From Candidatus Poribacteria bacterium (GTDB taxonomy: Bacteria; Poribacteria; WGA-4E; GCA-2687025), in the NCBI GenBank assembly GCA_016866785.1, contig VGLH01000033.1, forward strand, positions 1 through 34,165: a stretch of DNA of 34,165 bases, given 5' to 3'. Made by a program: the position numbers and the translations under genes. A model generated the notes under the pieces. The model saw only the letters and a program-made list of their open reading frames with translations, was not told the origin of the DNA and ran no database searches. Below are positions 23,222-34,165 of the stretch, piece by piece; position 1 is the stretch's first letter, and each line of letters starts with the position of its first letter.

Positions 23222-24234
23222 GTCGTCTCATCACGACGTCGGTGGTCGGAAGCCATGCGTTCCCTGGGTGGCTGTTTCTCGGCGACGCCGCCGCGCAGCG
23301 AGGCGAACTGGGGTCCGAAGATGTCCGCGAACTGGTTCAAGACGCGATCACCGTCGCCGTCGAGGATCAGCACCGGGCGGGACTCGATGTCATCACGGAC
23401 GGCGAGATGAGTCGGCTCGACTTCAACCTGGGGTTCTACAGCTTCCTCGACAACATCGAGCCGATTCCGACGGCGCGTCAGCTTGGCGTGCCGGCGCACG
23501 ACCAACGCGGGAAGTACCGCGTGGTCGGCGAGCTCGCCGCGCACGGTGGGCTGGGCGTCGTCGAGGACTTCCGCTATCTCAAGTCGATTGCCCGGACCGA
23601 CGTCAAGGCGACGCTGCCGGGACCGTTCACGCTGGCGGGGCGGCTGGAGCCCTGCACGCGCTACCCGGATCGCATGGCGCTCACCGAGGCGCTCATTCCC
23701 ATCGTCCGGTCCGAGGCGCTGCAGCTCGTCGCGGCTGGGGCGGACTTCCTCCAAATCGACGAGCCGTCGTTCAGCGTGTACCCGGAACGGATCGCCGAAT
23801 ACGTCGATGTGTTCAACCGCACGGTCGATGGCGTTCAGGCGCGTATCGCGACACACCTCTGCTTCGGGAACTACCGGGCCCGCGCGGTTGGGCGGCGGCG
23901 CTATCGCGCCCTCTTCCCGGCGGCGATGGACATGCGCGTCGGCCAGTTCGTGCTCGAGTTCGCGTCGCGGGAGTTCGTCGAGCTCGACCTGCTCCGGGAG
24001 ATCGCGCAGGACCGAGACGTCGCCGTGGGCGTCGTCGATGTGAAGAACCTGTGGATCGAGCCAGCGGAGGAGATCGCGACACGGACGCGATTGCTGTTGG
24101 AGCACGTTGCGCCGGAGCGCCTCACGCTGGTTCCAGACTGCGGTCTGTCGCAGACGGCACGATGGGCGGCTCTGCGGAAGCTCCGAGCTATGGTCGATGG
24201 TGCGAGCATCGTACGGCGAGAGTTGGCGGGCTAG
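23218..24234 (+). CDS. MetE C-terminal-like (cobalamin-independent methionine synthase type) methyltransferase
   Basis: The 338-residue protein starts at ATG 23218, overlapping the SDR stop and preceded by GAGGAG. It corresponds to the catalytic C-terminal barrel of MetE: TTSVVGSHAFPGWL at the start, DVITDGEMSRLDFN, LPGPFTLAGRL and FLQIDEPSFSVYP. The zinc site is complete with His213 and Cys215 (THLCFGNY), Glu247 (FVLEFAS) and Cys308 (VPDCGLSQTARWAAL). There is no MetE N-terminal folate-binding half. Stand-alone proteins of this type transfer methyl groups from diverse donors to homocysteine or other thiols, and coupling to an SDR suggests a specialised methylated substrate. The final TAG shares the palindrome CTAG with the stop of the opposing regulator gene. 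Confidence 0.9.
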   Translation: MSRLITTSVVGSHAFPGWLFLGDAAAQRGELGSEDVRELVQDAITVAVEDQHRAGLDVITDGEMSRLDFNLGFYSFLDNIEPIPTARQLGVPAHDQRGKYRVVGELAAHGGLGVVEDFRYLKSIARTDVKATLPGPFTLAGRLEPCTRYPDRMALTEALIPIVRSEALQLVAAGADFLQIDEPSFSVYPERIAEYVDVFNRTVDGVQARIATHLCFGNYRARAVGRRRYRALFPAAMDMRVGQFVLEFASREFVELDLLREIAQDRDVAVGVVDVKNLWIEPAEEIATRTRLLLEHVAPERLTLVPDCGLSQTARWAALRKLRAMVDGASIVRRELAG

Positions 24235-25655
24235 TCGCGCCCATCGTCCTGAACGCCGAGCTGCTTCATCTTCCGGTGGAGCGCCGTTCGACCGATTCCG
24301 AGCTGTCGCGCGGCGTGCGTGCGGTTCCCACCGTTCTGGCGCAGCACGTGCTCGATCAGGAGGCGCTGGAACTCATCGGTAGCGGCTTCCATCGATGGGC
24401 GCGACATGGACGCCAGGAAGCTCTCGATGCCGTTCCCAGAGGCGGCCCTGCCGGTCGGGGCATGTTCGCCGTCCGGTATGTCCTGGGTTCGAATGATCGA
24501 ACCGGAAGCGCGGACACACGCCATCTCGACCGCGTTCTCGAGCTCGCGGACGTTCCCATCCCAACGGCGCGACGTGAGCTCACGCATTGCGTCCGCGTCG
24601 AAGCCGGCAATCGATTTGCCGATTCTCCGCGCGTAGAGCCGCAGAAAGTGCTCCGCCAAACGCGGGATGTCCTCGCGTCGCTCCTCGAGCGATGGAACGC
24701 GGATGACGGCTCCGGTGAGGCGGTAGTAGAGGTCTCGGCGGAAGCTGCCCAGCTCGACGGCGTCGGCGAGCTGGCGGTTCGTCGCCGCGATGATGCGGAC
24801 GTCGGCTTTCGCGACGTCGCTGCCGACTCTCTGGATCTCCTTGAGCTCGATGGCGCGGAGCAGCTTCGGCTGAACGTCGAGGGACACTTCCCCGATCTCA
24901 TCGAGGAAGAGCGTGCCTCCCTCCGCCTCCATGAACCGTCCGGGTCGGGCATCCACTTCCGTCGCCACGCGCCTGCCGATGCCGAAGAGCTCGGCTTCCA
25001 GGAGTTGTTCGGGGATCGCGCTGCAGTTCACCGGCACGAACGGACCGTTGGCGCGCGCGCTGTTCGCATGGATCGTTCTCGCGACGAGCTCCTTCCCGGT
25101 TCCGCTGTCGCCGACGATCAGCAGGTCGAGCTCGGTTCTGGCGACGCGTCCGATGGTTCGCATCACCTCGATCATGACGGGACTGGCTCCGATGATCGGC
25201 GTGAGCGTCTCGGCTCCGTCGACCGGCTCTGGCACGCTCTCCCGCGGCGCGCGCCGTTCGCTCAGGATTTCCCGGAGTGTCGCCACGAGGCGATCGCCGT
25301 CGATGGGCTTGATGAGATAGTCGCGTGCGCCGGTGAGACTGGCGCGCAGAGCGGTGTCCGCCGAGCTGTTGCCGGTGATGATCAGGACGTCGGCTGGCGG
25401 CGTCTGCGCTCGCCCTGCGTCCAGGACACGCAGACCGCCGTGCTCGTCGCGAACGTTCGCGGAGTCCGGCATCCACAGGTCGGCGATCACGACGTCGAAG
25501 GGCGTCGAAGCGTCGCGCAGTTTGGCGAGGGCTGAATCGCGGTCGTAGGCGATTTCGACGTTGACATCCAGATCCGTCTCCATGCGGAGACACTGAACGA
25601 TGTAGTGGCAGGTGTCGTGGTTGTCGTCGGCTACGAGGATCCGCGACGCTGACAT
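24231..25655 (-). CDS. NtrC-like response regulator (REC-AAA+-Fis HTH) with degenerate GAFTGA loop
   Basis: The 474-residue cytosolic protein starts at ATG 25655. Its receiver domain (1-125) has the acidic pair Asp10/Asp11 and phosphoacceptor Asp59 (VVIADLWMPD), plus the conserved Lys in YLIKPID. The AAA+ domain has Walker A GDSGTGKE (182-189), Walker B TLFLDEIGE (248-256), FRRDLYYRL and GNVRELENAVE. A C-terminal Fis-type helix-turn-helix follows (LRQNGGNRTHAARQLGI). The sigma-54-contacting loop, normally FGHxxGAFTGA, reads FGIGRRVATEV (224-234), so the GAFTGA motif is lost and the loop is one residue shorter. It lies 51 bases after the CHASE2 kinase gene and is its likely partner. Confidence 0.93.
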   Translation of the reverse strand: MSASRILVADDNHDTCHYIVQCLRMETDLDVNVEIAYDRDSALAKLRDASTPFDVVIADLWMPDSANVRDEHGGLRVLDAGRAQTPPADVLIITGNSSADTALRASLTGARDYLIKPIDGDRLVATLREILSERRAPRESVPEPVDGAETLTPIIGASPVMIEVMRTIGRVARTELDLLIVGDSGTGKELVARTIHANSARANGPFVPVNCSAIPEQLLEAELFGIGRRVATEVDARPGRFMEAEGGTLFLDEIGEVSLDVQPKLLRAIELKEIQRVGSDVAKADVRIIAATNRQLADAVELGSFRRDLYYRLTGAVIRVPSLEERREDIPRLAEHFLRLYARRIGKSIAGFDADAMRELTSRRWDGNVRELENAVEMACVRASGSIIRTQDIPDGEHAPTGRAASGNGIESFLASMSRPSMEAATDEFQRLLIEHVLRQNGGNRTHAARQLGIGRTALHRKMKQLGVQDDGRD

Positions 25656-25706
25656 CGCGCTGGACCTTGTGATCTCGTGATGGAACGGGCGATGGCGGCG
25701 AGCCTT

Positions 25707-27593
25707 TCAGGACTGCGTAGCGGCGCGTGCTCGCGGCAACACGACCTCGAACGTCGTGCCCGCCCCGATTCGGCTCTCCACCCGAATATCGCCCCGGTGC
25801 GCGGTGACGATGTTCCTGGCGTTCAGCAGACCGAGACCGAGTCCGCGCGCTTTGGTCGTGTGGAACGCGTCAAACACGTGCGCCAAGCGATCAGCCTCGA
25901 TGCCGACGCCGGTGTCCGTGACGCGGATGGCGACCGTTCCAGCCGTCGGCTCTGCGTAGGCGAGAGTGAGGATACCACCCTCGGGCATCGCCTGCATCGC
26001 GTTCCGGATCAAGTTCGTGAACACGACGCGCATCGTCGCGCCGTCGATGTCCGCCAGGGCGCGATCCTGGGGGGCGATGCGTCGAGTCGATACGCCCTGC
26101 TCAGCGAGCTCGGGTTCCATGCTGTCGGCGACCTCCGCCGCCACCTCCCACGCGTCGCCTGGCATTGTCTCCGGGGGTCCGCCGCCGAAGTAAGCTAGAT
26201 CATTGTCCACCATGTCCGACAGGCGCTGGGTTCGTCGGATGATCGTGTCCATCTCGGAGCAGATGGCGTCAGGATTCGATGCCATCCCGAGCGGATCGCC
26301 TCGCTCGAAGTTGCGGCGCACGATGTCGGCAGGAGCGCGGATCGACTGGAGGACGTTGCGCACTTCGTGGCGGACCTGCGCCGCCATGACGCCGAATGCA
26401 GCTTCCCTCTCGGATGCCACGGCGCGCAGATGTGCCGCCTCGAGTCGCGCGGCGTCCAGCGCGAACGCCCATACGAGCGCCGAGAGCCCGATGACCGCGA
26501 CCGGTGCGACGATGGGGATCCAGACTCGCCAAATCTCGAACGCCGCGACGGCGACGAGGACGTGACCAGCGACAGCCGCGCCGCCAAGTACGAGAACGCG
26601 TCGCGACGTGAGAGCCGAAGCGCGGATGCCGAAGACCGCCGTGGCGCTCAACGCAGCCCACAGGACGATGGCGAAGATCGACGTCAGCGGCGTCAACGGG
26701 CGGTTGGATTCGTCAACGAGAAGCGAGTTGGTCGCGACGGCACGAGCTTCCAGAGCGTTGAGTCTGCCGAATGGGGACGGCAGACTGGGAACGGTCGGGG
26801 AATCGTCGACGCCGACGAGGACCCAACGATCTTCCACGGTCTTCCTGACGCTCGTGGCGTTCTCGCTGAGGACGTCCACGAACGACAGAGCCGGCAGAGC
26901 GGGCATTTCGCTCGAAAGCAGCAGGCGTCCTCGGTCGTCGAGATGTCGAGCGAGCTGTTCGGGTGGGACGCCGCGAGCCCGCGATGCGAGCAGCAGTTCC
27001 AGCCCGTAGACGGGCCCGCCGGTCACTCGATCGATCGCCTTCTCCTGCGCGTGGCGATAGACGCCGTCCTCGCGGCTCAGCACGATGGCGCTGAACGACG
27101 TCACGGGGTCTCCGGCTGCCATCTCCGTCGGCACGCGCTGCCATTCGCCGACTTGAGGCGGCTTCCTGGACGAAGCAGTATCCGTGAACGCGTACGGGCG
27201 AACGATGAAAAGGGGAACCCCGGGGGTGAGAGCGTCGTCCGTCGGGTCTTCGCGCGTGAACTGGATCGCGAACATGACGCCCTTGGCGCCAAGGAACTCC
27301 AGACGGGAAACCAACGCCGAGTAGACCTGGTGGGGCCACGGGAAGGGCCCCAGTGCCTCCTCGCTGCGGGCGTCGATGGTCACAATCGCCAGGTCTGGCG
27401 CGACGGCGGCGGGACGTCTCGCCTTGAGACGAGCCCGAAGGTCGTAAGCTCGGTACTCCAACGGAGACAAGAGCCCGAGTGCCTCAAGCATCACGCACAG
27501 GATCAGGGATGCGAGCAGCCATGTGGCTGCCTGCCTGCCGATGATCGGGCGTTCACGCGAGACCGAAGAGCGGCCGCTCGCGGAGGTGTTCAC
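25707..27593 (-). CDS. CHASE2-domain sensor histidine kinase
   Basis: The 628-residue protein is read from GTG 27593, which overlaps the upstream TGA as GTGA; an upstream start at 27638 is less likely. A transmembrane helix (residues about 21-37) precedes a large extracytoplasmic CHASE2 domain (about 40-300), recognisable from EYRAYDLRARLKAR, LAIVTIDARSEEALGPFPWP and the membrane-proximal LNALEARAVATNSLL. Three closely spaced helices follow (about 305-380). The kinase core has His409 (VRHEVRNVLQSI), the N box NLIRNAMQAMPEGG (about 528-541), G1 TDTGVGIE, F box FDAFHTTKA and G2 GLGLGLLNARNI. It would phosphorylate the response regulator encoded next. The extracytoplasmic ligand is unknown; the FecR-like protein encoded upstream is a candidate partner. 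Confidence 0.93.
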   Translation of the reverse strand: MNTSASGRSSVSRERPIIGRQAATWLLASLILCVMLEALGLLSPLEYRAYDLRARLKARRPAAVAPDLAIVTIDARSEEALGPFPWPHQVYSALVSRLEFLGAKGVMFAIQFTREDPTDDALTPGVPLFIVRPYAFTDTASSRKPPQVGEWQRVPTEMAAGDPVTSFSAIVLSREDGVYRHAQEKAIDRVTGGPVYGLELLLASRARGVPPEQLARHLDDRGRLLLSSEMPALPALSFVDVLSENATSVRKTVEDRWVLVGVDDSPTVPSLPSPFGRLNALEARAVATNSLLVDESNRPLTPLTSIFAIVLWAALSATAVFGIRASALTSRRVLVLGGAAVAGHVLVAVAAFEIWRVWIPIVAPVAVIGLSALVWAFALDAARLEAAHLRAVASEREAAFGVMAAQVRHEVRNVLQSIRAPADIVRRNFERGDPLGMASNPDAICSEMDTIIRRTQRLSDMVDNDLAYFGGGPPETMPGDAWEVAAEVADSMEPELAEQGVSTRRIAPQDRALADIDGATMRVVFTNLIRNAMQAMPEGGILTLAYAEPTAGTVAIRVTDTGVGIEADRLAHVFDAFHTTKARGLGLGLLNARNIVTAHRGDIRVESRIGAGTTFEVVLPRARAATQS

Positions 27594-28471
27594 GGCGCTG
27601 GAACGGGGCGCCCCGTCACCTGTTCCTCGGCGTACCACGCCTCCAAGAAGGTCCTGGATGCGGGCGTTGCGCAGAGAGGCAGCAATAGACGGTCTTCATC
27701 CCCGATCCGGTAGAGCGCTTGGTTGGCGGTGAGTTGGCTGGCGGAACGGGACACAACTCCCAGGTCGATCACGACGACGGGCCTCTGGCGCGCATCGATG
27801 TCTCGCGTGATACGGAGCCCCAAACGCTGGAGCACACTCACCAGCAGATACGCGTCGTCGAACGATTCGCCAACGCCACTGCTGTTCTCAGTCGCCCCCC
27901 GAACCGCCTCGAAGGTAGCTCTCGTCTTGGCGAAGACCGACGACGGATACATGGAATCCGACGTCAAGCTGTCGTCCGCCCTCTCCGATGCTTCAAGAGC
28001 GAGCCGCTGGCTCAACGCGCTCGGAGACGGCGTGAATCGCAGCCAGCGTCCTGCCTCTGCACGAGACATGGGGCGCTCGTCGTCGTCGGAGTCGCCGCGG
28101 ACCGGGTCGCCGGCTGGCAGCGCGTCCACCGAACCGGGCTCCGATGCTGCTGCACCGATGCGCCTGCCCTGAGTTCGACCGACTTGTGCGGCCGCTTCGC
28201 TGACCAGGTCCTTCGCAGACGACTCCCGGGCTCCTGTCAGCAGCGGGAGCCCACGCCCGTTGGCATCGGCGATCCTCAACAGAGCCATAGGAGGCATTCG
28301 GACCAGATCGGCGGATTCCAGGCTGTCGCCCGCGCGTATGAATGTCCAGCGGTTGGAGCCCTCACGCAGCACCTCGTTCCGGCCGAAGCTGAAGAGAACC
28401 TTGGGAAGCGTGTCTGCACGCAGCGCTGACGTGACGATGAACGCTGCGAGAAGGGCGATGACGGACCTCAT
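27590..28471 (-). CDS. Exported FecR-like protein with degenerate transglutaminase-like C-terminus
   Basis: The 293-residue protein is read from ATG 28471 (MRSVIALLAAFIVTSALRA, a signal peptide with likely cleavage before DTLPK), nine bases after AGAGG. Residues about 25-90 look FecR-like: FSFGRNEVLREGSNRW, IRAGDSLESADLVRMP, MALLRIADANG. A charged, low-complexity linker occupies about 95-150. Residues 195-282 match the pattern of the transglutaminase-like domain of the upstream gene: GESFDDAYLLVSVLQRLGLR against GDCDDMTVLVASLLESVGVR, and LLLPLCATPASRTFLEAW against AWIPLETTRIMDGFAAAW. The catalytic Cys position here is Ser/Phe and the His region reads RQRPVVVID, so it cannot be an active enzyme. 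A binding or adaptor role with the CHASE2 kinase is an inference. Confidence 0.75.
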   Translation of the reverse strand: MRSVIALLAAFIVTSALRADTLPKVLFSFGRNEVLREGSNRWTFIRAGDSLESADLVRMPPMALLRIADANGRGLPLLTGARESSAKDLVSEAAAQVGRTQGRRIGAAASEPGSVDALPAGDPVRGDSDDDERPMSRAEAGRWLRFTPSPSALSQRLALEASERADDSLTSDSMYPSSVFAKTRATFEAVRGATENSSGVGESFDDAYLLVSVLQRLGLRITRDIDARQRPVVVIDLGVVSRSASQLTANQALYRIGDEDRLLLPLCATPASRTFLEAWYAEEQVTGRPVPAP

Positions 28472-28494
28472 TGGCGTTTCCTCTGCGTCTCGTC

Positions 28495-30543
28495 TCACGG
28501 TGCGCTGTTTAGCAGCGACCGCACCGCTTCGACGAGCCATGGATCATCTAAGCACTCGCGGATCGAACGTTTCAGTTCGCGACTTGAGACACTGACTGCC
28601 ACCGGAGACACCTCGGGTCGGGCTGAGCCGTATCGATCCCATGCCTCACGGGTCGTTGTGCTTCCCAATACCGGTTCGCGCAACTGAGCGATGCCGTCGC
28701 GCCAGGCAGCGGCGAAGCCGTCCATGATCCGCGTGGTCTCCAATGGGATCCACGCATAGCCGTTGACTGCCGCGACGAGCGCATCCGCGTTGCGCTCCTG
28801 CGCCTCCTCTAGCGTGATCCCGCCCGGGTCGAAAGCCATCAGCACATGTCCCCGTTGCTGGATCAGCGCCGTCCGAACGCCGACCGACTCCAGCAGCGAC
28901 GCGACGAGGACAGTCATATCGTCGCAGTCGCCTACAGGTCTGGCGTCAGCCTGTGCCGCAACGAGGGCCCCGAGCACCTCTGCTGGGTATTTGATAGCAT
29001 CAATCGTGCCACTGCCGCTAGGCAGATTGGGGTCGTTGCCGTATGCCAGGCGCCGTAGCGCGCACGAGACCGAGATGGCTCGCGCGATATTCGTCGGCAG
29101 TCGTTCGAGTCCGTTTGGCGGAACCGATGCGAGCACGGACTCAGCGAACCGCCGTACCGTCGGATCGGTCGATGTGACGAACACGCCGAGTTTCGCTATG
29201 TCGTCGATCAGCAGCTCGTTCTTCCCGTGGAGCACGGCGTTCGCCCGTGCCAGGGCGCGCCGTCGTCCTGTGTTCTGAACGTCTGCGACTTCGACACGCA
29301 CTTCCACAGGTCGTGCTGCGCGGACCTCCATCGCTCGTGGGCTGAGGAGAAGCTTCTGCATTGGGACGATGACCCGAGAGCCTGGCTCGATGACGACGCC
29401 ATCGACGACCTCGGTTCCCAACCGACTGGTGAACTCGTCGATCCACACTCGGGCAGCGATTCGCACCGGCTTGTCGCCGTCGTTCCGAAGCACGAGGCGT
29501 CCGAGCCTGTCATCGAGTTGGAGAGCAGCCAATGGCGCATCCGTGTCCAGCCGCTCGCTCGACAGATCGCCAGAGGGCATCGCGTAGTGCTCGGTGAGGG
29601 CTGGATACAGTTCCGCGAACTCGATTCGCTCGATCTCAACGGGAGGGACGCGGTACGGAGCGCTGACCGCCAGTCCCGCGTAGGTCGTCGGACCCAGGTC
29701 CGGCGAGAGAGTGACGGCGGCTGCCAACTCGCCCCATGCGCGGCGGTAAGCGGCGCCGATAGACATTGTCGGTCTATCCCTTCGCCAGTCGGGCACGGAG
29801 ACGCCAGCGCGTATGGCGACCCCCCGAATCGGCGTCATTTCGAGCCCGGAACGAATGCCCCCGCCAACGTCCAACTCGACCGTCAGGAAGTCCGTGGAGT
29901 ATTGCGCACCCCAGACCACCACACGGGGCGAGGCTCGGCGTGGTTTGCCATCGCTCAGCCGGACCCAGGCGCCCGGGAGCCATTTGCCATTCTGGAACGA
30001 CATCCAGTTGCGGGCAGTCGCCGCAACCATGATCCCATCTGCCAGACGCAATCGGACGCCGACATCCGAGCTCCAACCGGTCGCGGTTCCCAAGTCTGTG
30101 CCGTCCATAGCCGCGCGCGCGCTCCGGAAACTGATTCCCGCACCGGTTCCGAGCCTGTCATGTAGCTTGAGACCGTATGCAAGTCGCGCTGTGTCTTGGT
30201 CGAACCGGATCTCGTCGTCAGCGGCGGCGACTCGCAGCCATTCCATCCCAAGCGCCCGGCGTTCCGAGAGTGGCATGACACCGGCAGCGTGCTGAGTTCG
30301 TATGAGCCCGAATCGGTTGGCTGTCGACGCATCTGCCGAATACTCGGCGAGATCGACGATGCTTGCAGGATTGTGACCCACGTCGCTCGCCGATTGCGAC
30401 GCAGCGACGCCTGTGCCGCCCATGCCGATGGATCGCACGCCTGTCGTGAACTCGGCGTCGAATGGCGCGGCATGCGTCAAGACCGCGACGCACCACAGGA
30501 CGCATCGCAGCCAGCGCGACGCGCCTGTAGCGGAATGACGCAC
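28495..30543 (-). CDS. PorV/UPF0164-like outer-membrane barrel fused to a transglutaminase-like domain
   Basis: The 682-residue protein is read from GTG 30543, five bases after GAGGAA. A signal peptide (WLRCVLWCVAVLTHAAPFDA) precedes a beta-barrel region (about 30-300) opening with GVRSIGMGGTGVAASQSASD and HNPASIVDL, the start of PorV/UPF0164-type barrels; alternating strands continue (ALGMEWLRVAA, GTGAGISFRSARA, VAIRAGVSVPDW, MSIGAAYRRAWGELAAAVTL). Residues about 345-425 look Ig-like. Residues about 490-640 are a transglutaminase-like cysteine domain with Cys540 (PVGDCDDMTVLVASLL), His566 (QQRGHVLMAF) and an acidic residue near Glu602 (AWIPLETT). PorV is a shuttle protein of type IX secretion, which fits the sorting tails nearby. 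A barrel with a fused transglutaminase domain is unusual. The gene ends 23 bases before the FecR-like gene. Confidence 0.8.
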   Translation of the reverse strand: MRHSATGASRWLRCVLWCVAVLTHAAPFDAEFTTGVRSIGMGGTGVAASQSASDVGHNPASIVDLAEYSADASTANRFGLIRTQHAAGVMPLSERRALGMEWLRVAAADDEIRFDQDTARLAYGLKLHDRLGTGAGISFRSARAAMDGTDLGTATGWSSDVGVRLRLADGIMVAATARNWMSFQNGKWLPGAWVRLSDGKPRRASPRVVVWGAQYSTDFLTVELDVGGGIRSGLEMTPIRGVAIRAGVSVPDWRRDRPTMSIGAAYRRAWGELAAAVTLSPDLGPTTYAGLAVSAPYRVPPVEIERIEFAELYPALTEHYAMPSGDLSSERLDTDAPLAALQLDDRLGRLVLRNDGDKPVRIAARVWIDEFTSRLGTEVVDGVVIEPGSRVIVPMQKLLLSPRAMEVRAARPVEVRVEVADVQNTGRRRALARANAVLHGKNELLIDDIAKLGVFVTSTDPTVRRFAESVLASVPPNGLERLPTNIARAISVSCALRRLAYGNDPNLPSGSGTIDAIKYPAEVLGALVAAQADARPVGDCDDMTVLVASLLESVGVRTALIQQRGHVLMAFDPGGITLEEAQERNADALVAAVNGYAWIPLETTRIMDGFAAAWRDGIAQLREPVLGSTTTREAWDRYGSARPEVSPVAVSVSSRELKRSIRECLDDPWLVEAVRSLLNSAP

Positions 30544-30601
30544 TGACGTTCCTCGACGGTGAAGCGGCGGTCAGCAACGGACCCGAGGCGTCGCCCACGG
30601 G

Positions 30602-33600
30602 TCACGGAGCCCAAACTAGCACAAGGCGGGTCGCCTCGGCAAAGCGCGTTCCGACGTACACGACGTAGATTCCGTTGGGGACCACATCTCCGTCGTCGTC
30701 TTTGCCGTCCCAGTCGATTGCGTGTTCGCCAGGACGCAGGTCCGAATCGAGGAGCCGACGTACGAGCCTGCCGTTCCCGTGGTAGATGCGGATACGCGTC
30801 GGCGATTCCTTAGCCAGGCGGAACGATACGACCGTCGATCCCGGCAGGTTCCCGCCGGATGGTGAAAACGCGCGCGGTTGGCTGCGGAGCCGGAGGGCGT
30901 CGTCTCCGGAGATGGGCGGCGTACGCCCCCCGTTCAGGACGGCGTACGTCCCGAACGAGGATATGCTGGCTCGGACCGCGCCTCCCGATACGGTTCCGCC
31001 GAGCCATTGCCATTCCTGCGTCACGGCGTTCCAGCGCGCGATTGCGCTGTCGAGCGGCGCATCGGGCGGCAGATGGAACTCGAGCATCGCTGGCTTCCGA
31101 GAGTCCAGCGACGCATCGACCGGCGAGAGAGTGTATACCATCAAGGCGTTGCCAGACGCGACGGGCGCGGGATTGATGGTGATGGCGATAGAAGACGAGA
31201 GCGACTTCGGCGGCACGCGCAGAGCGACGACTCCGTCCGCGCTCACGAGACGCGCACCGGCGTCCGCCGCGACGGGCGCGACCACATCGACCGCGGCAAT
31301 CGACGTGGCGCTCTGTCCGACGACGTCGGTCGCCGTAAGCCGCACGATGGCTTTGCCGGTGATTCCCGTCGTGTCCCACGACGCGAGGCGCCCGTCGATG
31401 ACGGCTGTGGAAACGCTATCCGTGACAGGGTTCCACGTCTCCCCGTCGGCGAGACGCCAGTCGATGCGATACGACGCGAAGTGACGATCCGTGGCGGTGC
31501 CCGCCATCGTCACGATGCCGGACACCTGTGAGCCCGAAACCGGCGAGCGAAGGGATGCCGTAGGACGACTCCGGTCGACGGCGAGTGCCACCACCGCCTC
31601 GGACTCCAGACCGACCGCATCGCGAACACGCAATCGCAGCGAGACCGGGCCCTCTGAGCCCTCGGTGTTCCACTGCCCCAGTACCCCTTGGGTTACACCG
31701 TCGCCCGATGTGCGCGCGGAGATCGGGTGATCGACGCCGTCCGGCGTGGCATAGAGCAGTCGATACTCGGCGAAGTGGCTGTCGCTGGCTGTCCCGACGA
31801 CGGTCACCACGCCGGTGACGATGCCGCCACCCTCCGGGCTGATGATCTGCGCCCTCGGCAGAGCTGCGTCGAGCGACACCTGCCGGACCTGCGGGGCCAT
31901 CTCGTGTCCAGCGGCGTCGGTTGCCAGCAATCGCAGGAGGACGTCGCCGTCCAGTGTCGGCACAGTCCAGAACGTGGATGCTCTGCCGTCGGACGTGGCG
32001 GAACCTGACGCTGCCGGGAGCCAGTCAGACGCCGACGGCGTCAGCGAAGTGGAGTATTCGAACCGGAATGTGATTGGGCTGTCGTCGCGTATGACGGCTT
32101 CAATCGGGATTGTGCCGCGTCCCGAGTAGAGCTGTGCTGGTGACGGGAGAGGAAACGACACGAGAATCGGCGGCGTGTTGTCGATGCGGATGACGAGTGG
32201 CGGAACCGGCGCAATGGTCTCGTAGCCCGCGTCATCGATCGCGCGGACCCGCAACTCGTAGGTGCCGTCCGCCACGCGCGTCGTGTCCCACTCCGACAGC
32301 ACGCCTCCGGTAACAGCGGCGGAACCGAATCCGACGCCTGCCCACGGCTCGGACGCACTGCGACGCGCCTCGACCACGAACCCGACGAGCGTCTCGTCCG
32401 ACGCGGTGCCGACGACGCGCACCACGCCGCTCAGTACGCTGTCAGATGCGGGCGCGGAGACCTGCACGATCGGACGAGCCCCTGGGTTCGACGCAGCGAG
32501 GCCCTGCGACGCTTGCCCCGCGTTGCCCGCCAGATCGTGCGCCACGACGCGCACCTCGACGGACGCGTCCAGCGGGGTGGTGTCCCAACTGGCTGCGATG
32601 GATGCACGACCGCCGGCTCCGAGTGGCAGGTCGCCCGCTTCGATGTTGCGCCATGCCCCGTCCGCGCTGGTACGGTATTCGACGCGGTATGACGACAGGT
32701 TGGCGTCCACGAGCTCCGCTCGGACGAGGACGCGTCCCGATACCGGCGACACCATCGGCTCCAGCGTCACCACCGGGATCGTGTTGTCTACGACCAGCGA
32801 CAGCACGCGCGACCGCTCATGGCGGACATCGTTGGGTCCATCGAGCCGATCCCAGACCGCCAAAGACAACTCGTACTCCCCGTCCTCGACGTTCCGGGTG
32901 TCCCACTCGGCGAGCACGCCGTCCCGCACCGCTCGATCCGACTGAACCGGGTTCGCGCCCGGGATCCGGACCATGTAGCCCTCGAAGTCCGTCTCGTCGT
33001 ACGCCCTCCCCCGGAGTTGCACAACGCCGGCGACGTGGCTTCCGCCGGATGGGAACGCGATCTCCGCGTACGGCGGCGATACGTCGGCGTAAAACACCGT
33101 CCGTGCAGGCGTGGGATCCGCCATGCCGTCACGGTTCACCGCTGCGACTTCGAAGAGGATCGGGCGACCAGGCGCCAAGCCGGACAGAAATACGCTCGGC
33201 TCCGCCTGAGGCGCGGACCACGCGCCGCCGTCGAGACGGATGGCGTACCGAATCTGGTCGGGCGGGGTCGTCACGTCGCCGCCGGTGAAAGAGATGCGCG
33301 TCGCAGTCTCGCCGATGATCCCGCGCGGTGCTTCGAGCAGTCTCGTCTGCGGCAATGAGGTGGATGCTCGGTGTCGGAGTAGTCCTGAATCCCCGATCCC
33401 GCTGAACCAGAGGTCGCCGTTCACCGACTGAGCGACGGACAGGACTCCAGTAGAAGGGACGCCGTCGGCGGCTGTGAATTGGCTCCACTGCCGGATCGGG
33501 TCCCAGTGCGCGATGCCTTCGTCGAGGGCTGCCCATACCGTGCCGTCCGTGCTGTCCTCGATCAGAGCGCGCACCGAGTTGCCGGGCAAGCCGTCGGCGC

Positions 33601-34165
33601 GGCTGTACTCGCGCCATTCGCCGCCTACGCGGGCAAAGAGGCCGTCTGAGGTACCCACCCAAAGCCAGCCTCGTCCATCAGCCAGGATCGCGCGGACCTC
33701 GGACCCGACGGGCAAGGGCTCCTCGATGAACTCGTCGCCGTCTAACCTCAGCAAGCCGCGGCGTTTCGTGCCGATCCATACGGTTCCGCGCACGTCTTCT
33801 GCGATTGCCACGGGCGTGCTCCCCGTGCGCCAGTAGCGCCACGTCGCGCCGTCGAACCGCGCTACGCCTCCAAGGATGTCTACGTCATCCGGGGGGTCGC
33901 GCAGGATTCCGGTGCCGACCCAAGCGCGACCTCGCGAGTCGAAGGCAATCGAGTAGACCTCGTTGCTCTCGCCGATTCCGTTGGCGGCTCGGAGCGTACG
34001 GAACGTCTCACCTTCTGGGATGGCGAGCCCGCCGCGCGTTCCGTCGCTGCCAGCCCACACACGCCCATCGGGGGCGACCGCGACCGCGCGGATGCGCGCG
34101 CTCGGGAGACCGGTCTCGACGCCATACAGGGCAATCGCATCTGCCGAGAGCTGAAGGAGTCCGAC
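30602..34165 (-). CDS. Giant exported protein: Reg_prop propeller, Y_Y_Y-like, Ig-like repeats, ZU5-like, FlgD sorting tail (N-terminus off window)
   Basis: The open frame runs from the right edge for 1187 residues; the start and any signal peptide lie outside. Two-component-regulator propeller repeats occupy about 34165-33380: GLPSARIRAVAVAPDGRVW, AIAEDVRGTVWIGTKRRGLL, VRAILADGRGWLWVGTSDGL, DLWFSGIGDSGLL. A Y_Y_Y-like domain follows (PDQIRYAIRLDGGAWS, LSGLAPGRPILFEVAAVNRD). Six Ig-like modules then occupy about 33070-31290, then a ZU5-like domain with a repeat of dG.v.l.vPP (VVALRVPPKSLSSSIAITI). The tail is a FlgD-like sorting domain (STVVSFRLAKESPTRIRIYH, WDGKDDDGDVVPNGIYVVYV). Reg_prop plus Y_Y_Y is the sensor half of hybrid two-component systems, but here it is secreted. 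It is probably first in the operon with the CHASE2 kinase. Confidence 0.85.
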   Translation of the reverse strand, partial: VGLLQLSADAIALYGVETGLPSARIRAVAVAPDGRVWAGSDGTRGGLAIPEGETFRTLRAANGIGESNEVYSIAFDSRGRAWVGTGILRDPPDDVDILGGVARFDGATWRYWRTGSTPVAIAEDVRGTVWIGTKRRGLLRLDGDEFIEEPLPVGSEVRAILADGRGWLWVGTSDGLFARVGGEWREYSRADGLPGNSVRALIEDSTDGTVWAALDEGIAHWDPIRQWSQFTAADGVPSTGVLSVAQSVNGDLWFSGIGDSGLLRHRASTSLPQTRLLEAPRGIIGETATRISFTGGDVTTPPDQIRYAIRLDGGAWSAPQAEPSVFLSGLAPGRPILFEVAAVNRDGMADPTPARTVFYADVSPPYAEIAFPSGGSHVAGVVQLRGRAYDETDFEGYMVRIPGANPVQSDRAVRDGVLAEWDTRNVEDGEYELSLAVWDRLDGPNDVRHERSRVLSLVVDNTIPVVTLEPMVSPVSGRVLVRAELVDANLSSYRVEYRTSADGAWRNIEAGDLPLGAGGRASIAASWDTTPLDASVEVRVVAHDLAGNAGQASQGLAASNPGARPIVQVSAPASDSVLSGVVRVVGTASDETLVGFVVEARRSASEPWAGVGFGSAAVTGGVLSEWDTTRVADGTYELRVRAIDDAGYETIAPVPPLVIRIDNTPPILVSFPLPSPAQLYSGRGTIPIEAVIRDDSPITFRFEYSTSLTPSASDWLPAASGSATSDGRASTFWTVPTLDGDVLLRLLATDAAGHEMAPQVRQVSLDAALPRAQIISPEGGGIVTGVVTVVGTASDSHFAEYRLLYATPDGVDHPISARTSGDGVTQGVLGQWNTEGSEGPVSLRLRVRDAVGLESEAVVALAVDRSRPTASLRSPVSGSQVSGIVTMAGTATDRHFASYRIDWRLADGETWNPVTDSVSTAVIDGRLASWDTTGITGKAIVRLTATDVVGQSATSIAAVDVVAPVAADAGARLVSADGVVALRVPPKSLSSSIAITINPAPVASGNALMVYTLSPVDASLDSRKPAMLEFHLPPDAPLDSAIARWNAVTQEWQWLGGTVSGGAVRASISSFGTYAVLNGGRTPPISGDDALRLRSQPRAFSPSGGNLPGSTVVSFRLAKESPTRIRIYHGNGRLVRRLLDSDLRPGEHAIDWDGKDDDGDVVPNGIYVVYVGTRFAEATRLVLVWAP
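31290..33070 (-). repeat. Six tandem Ig-like modules encoded in the giant exported protein
   Basis: Modules of about 95 residues share a pattern: a strand with P..G..V.GVV.V.GTA.D, a .YRL/YRV segment, then GVL..WDT or VLGQWNT and a final LRVRDAVG-type strand. Examples are VVTVVGTASDSHFAEYRLLY, IVTMAGTATDRHFASYRIDW and VVRVVGTASDETLVGFVVEA. One module (about 32170-31880) is more divergent. The repeats are protein-level only; DNA identity is modest, so they are ancient duplications. Confidence 0.75.

Follow-up and report, generated by a model that had tools for sequence, protein, structure and literature searches.

The window analysed here, 34,165 bases in length, is the entire contig C33 (VGLH01000033.1) of a fragmented genome assembly from a Candidatus Poribacteria bacterium (GCA_016866785.1). 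On its minus strand, from position 34165 to position 24231, five open reading frames (ORFs) encode, in this order, a propeller protein with immunoglobulin-like (Ig) domains and a FlgD tail (REG), a fused outer-membrane barrel and transglutaminase-like domain (BTG), a FecR-like protein, a CHASE2 histidine kinase and an NtrC-like response regulator. This cassette, its conservation and its possible role in carrying a signal from the cell surface to transcription are the subject of this report. An earlier note, made from the sequence alone, had placed five same-strand genes at 24231-34165, and the ORF calls bear this out; the gaps of 58, 23 and -4 bases given there also hold, but the kinase and regulator genes are separated by 51 bases, the earlier figure of 113 having been an error. 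The features are as follows:

30602..34165, minus strand: REG propeller/Ig/FlgD-tail protein, 1187 codons, 5' end beyond the contig
28495..30543, minus strand: BTG, outer-membrane barrel, Ig-like region and transglutaminase-like domain, 682 amino acids
29554..30456, minus strand: barrel part of BTG, about residues 30-330, from the strand pattern of the model, with the PorV_fam match at residues 31-167
28624..29202, minus strand: transglutaminase-like part of BTG, about residues 448-640, from the alignment, with invariant C540, H566 and E602
27590..28471 (ORF 27590-28540), minus strand: FecR-like periplasmic protein, probable ATG start at 28471 (MRSVIALL)
27608..27955, minus strand: C-terminal domain of the FecR-like protein, transglutaminase-like but degenerate, from hhalign to the BTG profile
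25707..27593 (ORF 25707-27638), minus strand: CHASE2 histidine kinase, likely GTG start at 27593, with a 4-base overlap with the stop of the FecR-like gene
24231..25655, minus strand: response regulator with AAA+ domain and Fis-type helix-turn-helix (HTH), from Pfam
24957..24980, minus strand: L1 loop of the regulator, VAT-type in place of GAFTGA-type, from the alignment of cassette regulators

REG had been described as carrying Reg_prop, Y_Y_Y, Ig and ZU5 domains and a FlgD tail. Pfam supports Reg_prop (9e-21), an Ig domain (Big_7, 2e-11) and the tail (FlgD_ig, 4e-9, present in 15 of 15 REG sequences), but neither Y_Y_Y nor ZU5 matched the window protein at E<=1; among the 15 orthologue sequences, Y_Y_Y was found in six and ZU5 in none. 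The N-terminus of the window protein is cut by the contig end, and several complete orthologues start, by eye, like a signal peptide. When a profile of the 15 sequences was compared with the PDB, the best matches were the sensors of hybrid two-component systems (HTCS; 4a2l, 1e-78, and 3v9f, 1e-66), with further matches to FlgD and to PorZ (5m11); a model of the PorZ C-terminus also matched the REG tail weakly. Of the suggestion that REG is a detached HTCS sensor, the resemblance of its propeller to such sensors holds. By architecture, however, REG is not an HTCS, as it ends in FlgD_ig and has no kinase, the kinase and the regulator being separate ORFs, and it can at least equally well be described as a surface protein of the kind exported by the type IX secretion system (T9SS), because a FlgD-type C-terminal domain (CTD) tail, a PorV-like partner, and SprA-like and C25 proteins are all present. 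Across the phylum, SprA-like matches occur in 79 of 85 genomes (weakly scoring, and in most cases a single large ORF per genome), and large C25 proteins, many of them of about 2000 amino acids, in all 14 genomes tested.

The barrel of BTG matched the NCBIfam family PorV_fam weakly, under the curated cut-off, and the PorV of T9SS was the sole sequence match of the BTG profile in the PDB (E 4.8e-7). In agreement with this, the AlphaFold2 model (predicted local distance difference test score, pLDDT, 84) gave Foldseek matches to FadL and T9SS PorV barrels (8gl6/6h3i), and we assign the barrel part to the PorV/FadL fold and sequence family. In the alignment, the C-terminal part contains the invariant DCDD, His and ETT set that is typical of transglutaminase-like cysteine enzymes. 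The domain is probably transglutaminase-like by this motif; Pfam is weak here, PF01841 (Transglut_core) having matched one of 16 members with an E value of 0.044. The description of BTG as a PorV-like barrel-transglutaminase is sustained for the barrel by profile and Foldseek, and the invariant Cys540, His566 and Glu602 make the domain a candidate transglutaminase.

The FecR-like protein starts with a hydrophobic, signal-peptide-like segment and was modelled with a pLDDT of 81. Its C-terminal domain aligned to the transglutaminase-like domain of BTG (hhalign 96.7%, E 4e-10), with the catalytic Cys and His not conserved, as expected of the pseudo-transglutaminase domain proposed earlier; its N-terminal domain aligned to proteins encoded after transglutaminase-like genes in Bacteroidota and Ignavibacteria (hhalign 95%). 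The FecR identity proposed along with that domain found no support in Pfam. Plain membership of the FecR family was rejected, as Pfam was negative and the profile scored a probability of 3% against the PF04773 protein of genome G023, and we use the name to denote a resemblance of pattern only. Save for one Transglut_core match, the 16 FecR-like orthologues had no other relevant Pfam match. Foldseek of the model returned nothing at E<=0.001, the top entry being 5ix9, a 76-residue cell-surface anchoring domain, with a target template modelling score of 0.73, and no matches to this protein turned up when plasmids were searched.

The kinase, in turn, is as predicted: Pfam identified CHASE2 (3e-24) and HATPase_c (1e-21), hydrophobic segments lie on either side of CHASE2, the H-box RHE.RN (read as RHEVRN) is kept in orthologues, and G-boxes are present. 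The regulator combines Response_reg (1e-15), Sigma54_activat (6e-56) and HTH_8 (3e-13), with a phospho-acceptor at D59 and the Walker A motif GDSGTGK at 182. Its designation as NtrC-like holds for the receiver domain, the AAA+ domain with its Walker A motif and the Fis-type HTH, but it is not a canonical NtrC, as the GAFTGA motif is absent.

The earlier note had proposed a search for conserved synteny of the five families in related genomes. Using BTG as the query, we searched 85 genomes of the phylum, which are species representatives and several of which are incomplete; genome counts were tallied by hand, and many contigs end inside or beside the cassette. The search found the families linked in many related genomes. 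About 20 genomes, from families f1 to f7, carry BTG; in the f8 genomes and the two of f9 and f10, the query matched the barrel only. CHASE2 was found in 20 of the 85 genomes and in none of f8 to f10. The genes for BTG, the FecR-like protein, the kinase and the regulator are contiguous in 18 genomes of f1 to f7 (in G005 by way of its second cassette), and this four-gene block is kept in most poribacterial families and was not found in the largest. REG lies upstream of BTG in 16 genomes; their adjacency is not readable in G011 and G021, where contigs end, and a transposase-like ORF (G018) or two ORFs (second cassette of G005) can stand between them. The trees of BTG, the FecR-like protein, the kinase and the regulator have 8-12 of 13-15 splits in common, compared with at most three in 500 label shuffles. 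As the component trees share splits far above chance, the block has been inherited together, and synteny and congruent trees jointly support the view that the five families are one system.

Some variation surrounds this block. In f5 and f6 (L043, L044, L046, L047, L049-L051), a protein of about 790 amino acids, whose start appears WD40-like by eye, is encoded upstream of REG. Mobile-element-like ORFs, also identified by eye, lie beside or within the cassette at L054 6488-7705 (G005) and L044 8106-8843 (G018). Two BTG paralogues, L062 and L072 (G024:C21 and G023:C511), lie beside large ORFs with TIR-like starts (by eye), and a REG-like gene is also near the paralogue of L062. Finally, an orphan cassette-type CHASE2 kinase occurs in G009 (L067 8841-10697), with no BTG, FecR-like protein or regulator alongside.

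Directly after the regulator gene, and on its strand, 19 genomes encode a sigma-70-family factor that spans regions 1.2 to 4. The cassette-linked factors form one clade in the sigma factor tree (support 0.978), inside which lies the orthologue of the window genome (G000:C158:1496-2707, L172), grouped with its family relatives (0.996); that gene adjoins a formate-tetrahydrofolate ligase-like ORF, identified by eye. Among the genomes with a readable cassette end, the sigma factor is displaced in the window genome only. There, the five-gene run stops at the regulator because a convergent, cobalamin-independent methionine synthase-like gene overlaps the regulator end, sharing four bases with it. 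No sigma factor scoring like those of the cassettes was found in the four f8 and two other-class genomes tested, which are also cassette-free. A relic of the cassette is seen in G025 (L066 8911-10746), where BTG is cut to about 200 residues and the sigma factor follows directly, the intervening genes being missing.

In the aligned cassette regulators, the loop after ELFG has, without exception, an invariant VAT in place of GAFTGA; the regulators of L061, L173 and L174 likewise have a VAT-type loop, and every regulator of a sigma-linked cassette that is readable across the loop lacks GAFTGA. Eleven other enhancer-binding proteins of the window genome keep GAFTGA-type loops (GAFTGA, GSFTGA, GAFTNA, GAYTGS), and one divergent paralogue, in the second cassette of G005 (L059), retains GAFSGA. 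In this locus, loss of GAFTGA accompanies a neighbouring sigma-70-family factor, and no such neighbour was seen beside loop-keeping relatives. Absence of sigma-54 as the cause of the loss was rejected, since rpoN is present in 80 of the 85 genomes, including that of the window. As a precedent, NtrC proteins of Rhodobacter and Caulobacter that lack GAFTGA work at sigma-70 promoters (PMC10274813). As a separate observation, several families (G005, G012-G014, G016, G017, G019-G022 and others) encode a second, divergent sigma-54, mostly of 450-470 amino acids, in addition to the canonical one, and G011 has the divergent type only.

When GTDB genomes were scanned once using the BTG profile, 80 loci were listed; this sample is non-random, and the models were trained on Poribacteria. 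Among the matches listed, 64 loci lie outside Poribacteria, and in 35 of these 64 a CHASE2 protein is encoded within 6 kb of the transglutaminase-like gene, in all 35 cases on the same strand. No CHASE2 match was found in 35 control loci (139 kb), and the spirochaete loci among the matches listed have no CHASE2. In these other phyla, it is the transglutaminase-like part that is the constant neighbour of CHASE2, the barrel often being undetected in the same protein. The intracellular portion varies: CHASE2 is fused to a nucleotide cyclase in L110, L119, L122 and L138 (tested) and to a sigma-54 activator that keeps a GAFTGA-type loop in L144 and L149 (by Pfam) and in others (by profile and motif). 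Since CHASE2 and an AAA+ activator thus exist as one chain, these fusions support the placing of CHASE2 and the regulator in one pathway. In one poribacterial locus, L060 (G005:C236), CHASE2 is split over two ORFs and is accompanied by a SpoIIE phosphatase and PEGA; this locus continues with separate PorV-barrel and transglutaminase-like genes.

It is about an even call, in our judgement, that the window represents one branch of an undescribed, cross-phylum class in which a constant outer-membrane input and a CHASE2 receptor are joined to a freely swapped intracellular output. The input of such a class would be the transglutaminase-like protein, accompanied in many members by a PorV-type barrel, a FecR-like partner and an exported propeller. 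Its outputs would be, in Poribacteria, a kinase, a GAFTGA-less regulator and its own sigma factor, with a SpoIIE phosphatase in one poribacterium; in Ignavibacteria, Calditrichaeota and related groups, a sigma-54 activator fusion; and in Bacteroidota, Ignavibacteria, Sumerlaeota and Neomarinimicrobiota, a nucleotide cyclase. Such an input module, shared across phyla and combined with exchangeable outputs, would, if true, be a larger finding than the cassette itself.

For the cassette itself, gene content, gene order, co-inheritance, loop loss, sigma linkage and the presence of T9SS-like genes are direct observations. From these we infer the physical contacts, direction of flow, ligand and regulon of a six-component relay from the cell surface to transcription, a reading that, resting on sequence comparisons, we hold with evenly divided confidence. 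The T9SS-like machinery would export the propeller, whose FlgD/CTD tail would anchor it outside the cell by docking on the PorV-like barrel of BTG; such docking is plausible because an SprA-like translocon and C25 proteins are encoded. The transglutaminase-like domain, which may lie at the mouth of the barrel or in the periplasm, might then change when a ligand or substrate binds, or with the state of secretion and occupancy of the barrel. The FecR-like protein would link BTG to the CHASE2 domain at the inner membrane; that the two pair is suggested by the dead copy of the BTG enzyme domain that the FecR-like protein bears. As can be expected from knowledge of these families, the kinase would phosphorylate the regulator. 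Because the sigma-54 loop is lost and a sigma gene is linked, the regulator would not work with sigma-54 and may instead act at promoters of the dedicated sigma-70-family factor, or control that factor.

Several points weigh against this relay. The HisKA match of the kinase (0.0014) is under the Pfam cut-off, and none of the 16 FecR-like members matches PF04773 (FecR) at E<=1. In the window genome, the sigma orthologue is unlinked, on contig C158. Since REG is not beside BTG in f7 (L053, L057), the propeller is not obligatory in that family. Moreover, the case for T9SS export of REG comes from its tail and from the T9SS-like genes in the genome, which makes REG a putative T9SS cargo.

In a different role for the same genes, the cassette would monitor the T9SS-like machinery by the flux of CTD proteins through the barrel, and REG would not sense a ligand but serve as a cargo that reports on this flux. 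A PorV-like barrel, a CTD-type tail, a kinase, a regulator and a sigma factor do share the locus, T9SS-like genes are present, and PorA/PorXY/SigP provides a precedent. We nevertheless consider such surveillance unlikely: families f8, f9 and f10 have SprA-like and C25 genes with neither CHASE2 nor the cassette, so that T9SS is independent of it, and the HTCS-type propellers of REG suggest ligand binding. Those propellers, matching sensors 4a2l and 3v9f as strongly as they do, could instead mean that REG binds a glycan or host polymer at the surface and that the relay induces uptake or degradation genes, and the window does encode a sugar isomerase-like protein and, by prediction, an arabinofuranosidase. 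Beside the cassettes inspected, however, no genes for carbohydrate-active enzymes, SusC/D or sulfatases were recognised by eye, and proteins combining Reg_prop with a CTD can serve otherwise, as PorZ (5m11) does; this reading appears rather improbable to us.

We are similarly doubtful of a proteolytic switch, in which the transglutaminase-like domain would be active, as a cysteine peptidase or a cross-linker, and would process REG or an envelope protein, with the CHASE2 branch controlling it or reading its activity. LapG-like logic offers a comparison for such a switch. In its favour, BTG has the invariant DCDD...H...ETT residues, the FecR-like partner might play a regulatory part through its inactive copy, and in other phyla it is the transglutaminase-like part, often with no barrel detected in that protein, that constantly neighbours CHASE2; but the third residue is Glu instead of the usual Asp, and Transglut_core is significant in hardly any member. 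Very improbable, finally, is a conserved but functionally loose cluster, in which the kinase-regulator pair is independent of the outer-membrane genes: REG is detachable in f7, the sigma gene is unlinked in the window genome and the kinase in G009 (L067) is an orphan, but the trees are congruent, conservation is deep across families, and the association of the transglutaminase-like protein with CHASE2 arises independently in other phyla, on the same strand in 35 of 35 cases among the matches listed.

A promoter scan found no sigma-70-type promoter-like sites across the region, which is uninformative and proves nothing, and a terminator scan found a single terminator-like site, inside the kinase gene, which is likewise uninformative as shuffled sequences gave more. 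Positions 1-24230 contain, by Pfam or by eye, sugar isomerase-like, aminotransferase, arabinofuranosidase-like, subtilase and methyltransferase genes, as well as DUF1015, short-chain dehydrogenase (SDR) and methionine synthase-like genes, all of them ordinary.

The environmental factors recognised by CHASE2 have been described as unknown (PMC5192318). The relay proposed here would give CHASE2 a defined set of outer-membrane partners that recurs in several phyla, and would tie T9SS-type surface proteins to transcription in bacteria for which we found no description of such a pathway. The loss of the sigma-54 loop beside a sigma-70-family factor would also offer a natural test of how enhancer-binding proteins are re-tooled.

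Among known systems, the closest in logic is that of Porphyromonas gingivalis, where T9SS control runs from PorA, an exported PorV-binding CTD protein, to PorXY and SigP (PMC7712824). As in the proposed relay, the signal of such a protein passes to a kinase and regulator and to a sigma factor, although SigP is an extracytoplasmic function (ECF) factor. PorY is not known to contain CHASE2, nor are the PorA-PorXY-SigP genes known to form one operon. The sensing proposed here, by a CHASE2 receptor through an outer-membrane barrel, has a parallel in the NsrA - CyaD1/CyaD2/CyaK - Clr pathway of Sinorhizobium meliloti, in which the barrel NsrA feeds CHASE2 cyclases; its output is of the cAMP/CRP-family type, and no transglutaminase is described for it (PMC13001267). 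In the BiofilmReg operon of Burkholderiales, which consists of a response regulator, a LysM/FecR protein, a CHASE2 kinase and DUF4136 (PMC5192318), the first three resemble the cassette in that a two-component pair with CHASE2 is encoded together with a FecR-type protein of the periplasm. That operon differs in its CreB-like regulator, its LysM/FecR protein and its gene order, and has no barrel, transglutaminase, propeller or sigma factor; conversely, the window regulator is of the AAA+/Fis and not the CreB-like type and its FecR-like protein is unmatched by the FecR model, which places the cassette outside the BiofilmReg type. A cluster in Campylobacterota, encoding a CHASE2 adenylate cyclase, an outer-membrane protein with a FecR domain, a TPR protein and a phosphodiesterase (PMC9239204), resembles the cassette in linking a FecR-type outer-membrane partner to a CHASE2 effector, but its output is cAMP, and transglutaminase, propeller and sigma factor are not described there.

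At the level of single components, the HTCS of Bacteroides (PDB 4a2l, 3v9f, 3ott) have the Reg_prop propellers that are the best PDB match of REG; unlike them, REG is kinase-free and finishes with a FlgD/CTD tail, and the separate kinase of the window carries CHASE2. In the T9SS attachment complex (PDB 5m11, 6h3i), PorZ is a propeller-plus-CTD protein and PorV a barrel of the PorV fold, but in the cassette a transglutaminase-like domain is joined to the barrel, REG carries Big_7 Ig repeats, and both are linked to a two-component system. Literature searches on CHASE2 with transglutaminase, CHASE2 with sigma-54 activators, and Reg_prop with FlgD, in which subscription journals were little covered, returned no description of the set. 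The earlier statement that no named system has this set is consistent with that result but needs qualifying, as FecR/CHASE2 linkages have been published both with a response regulator (PMC5192318) and without one (PMC9239204). The pieces and their pairings are thus already known, and relays from the outer membrane to CHASE2 have precedents; the novelty lies in the joining of barrel and transglutaminase-like domain, the dead copy of that domain in the partner protein, the presumed export of the propeller, a regulator that lacks GAFTGA and the linkage of a sigma factor.

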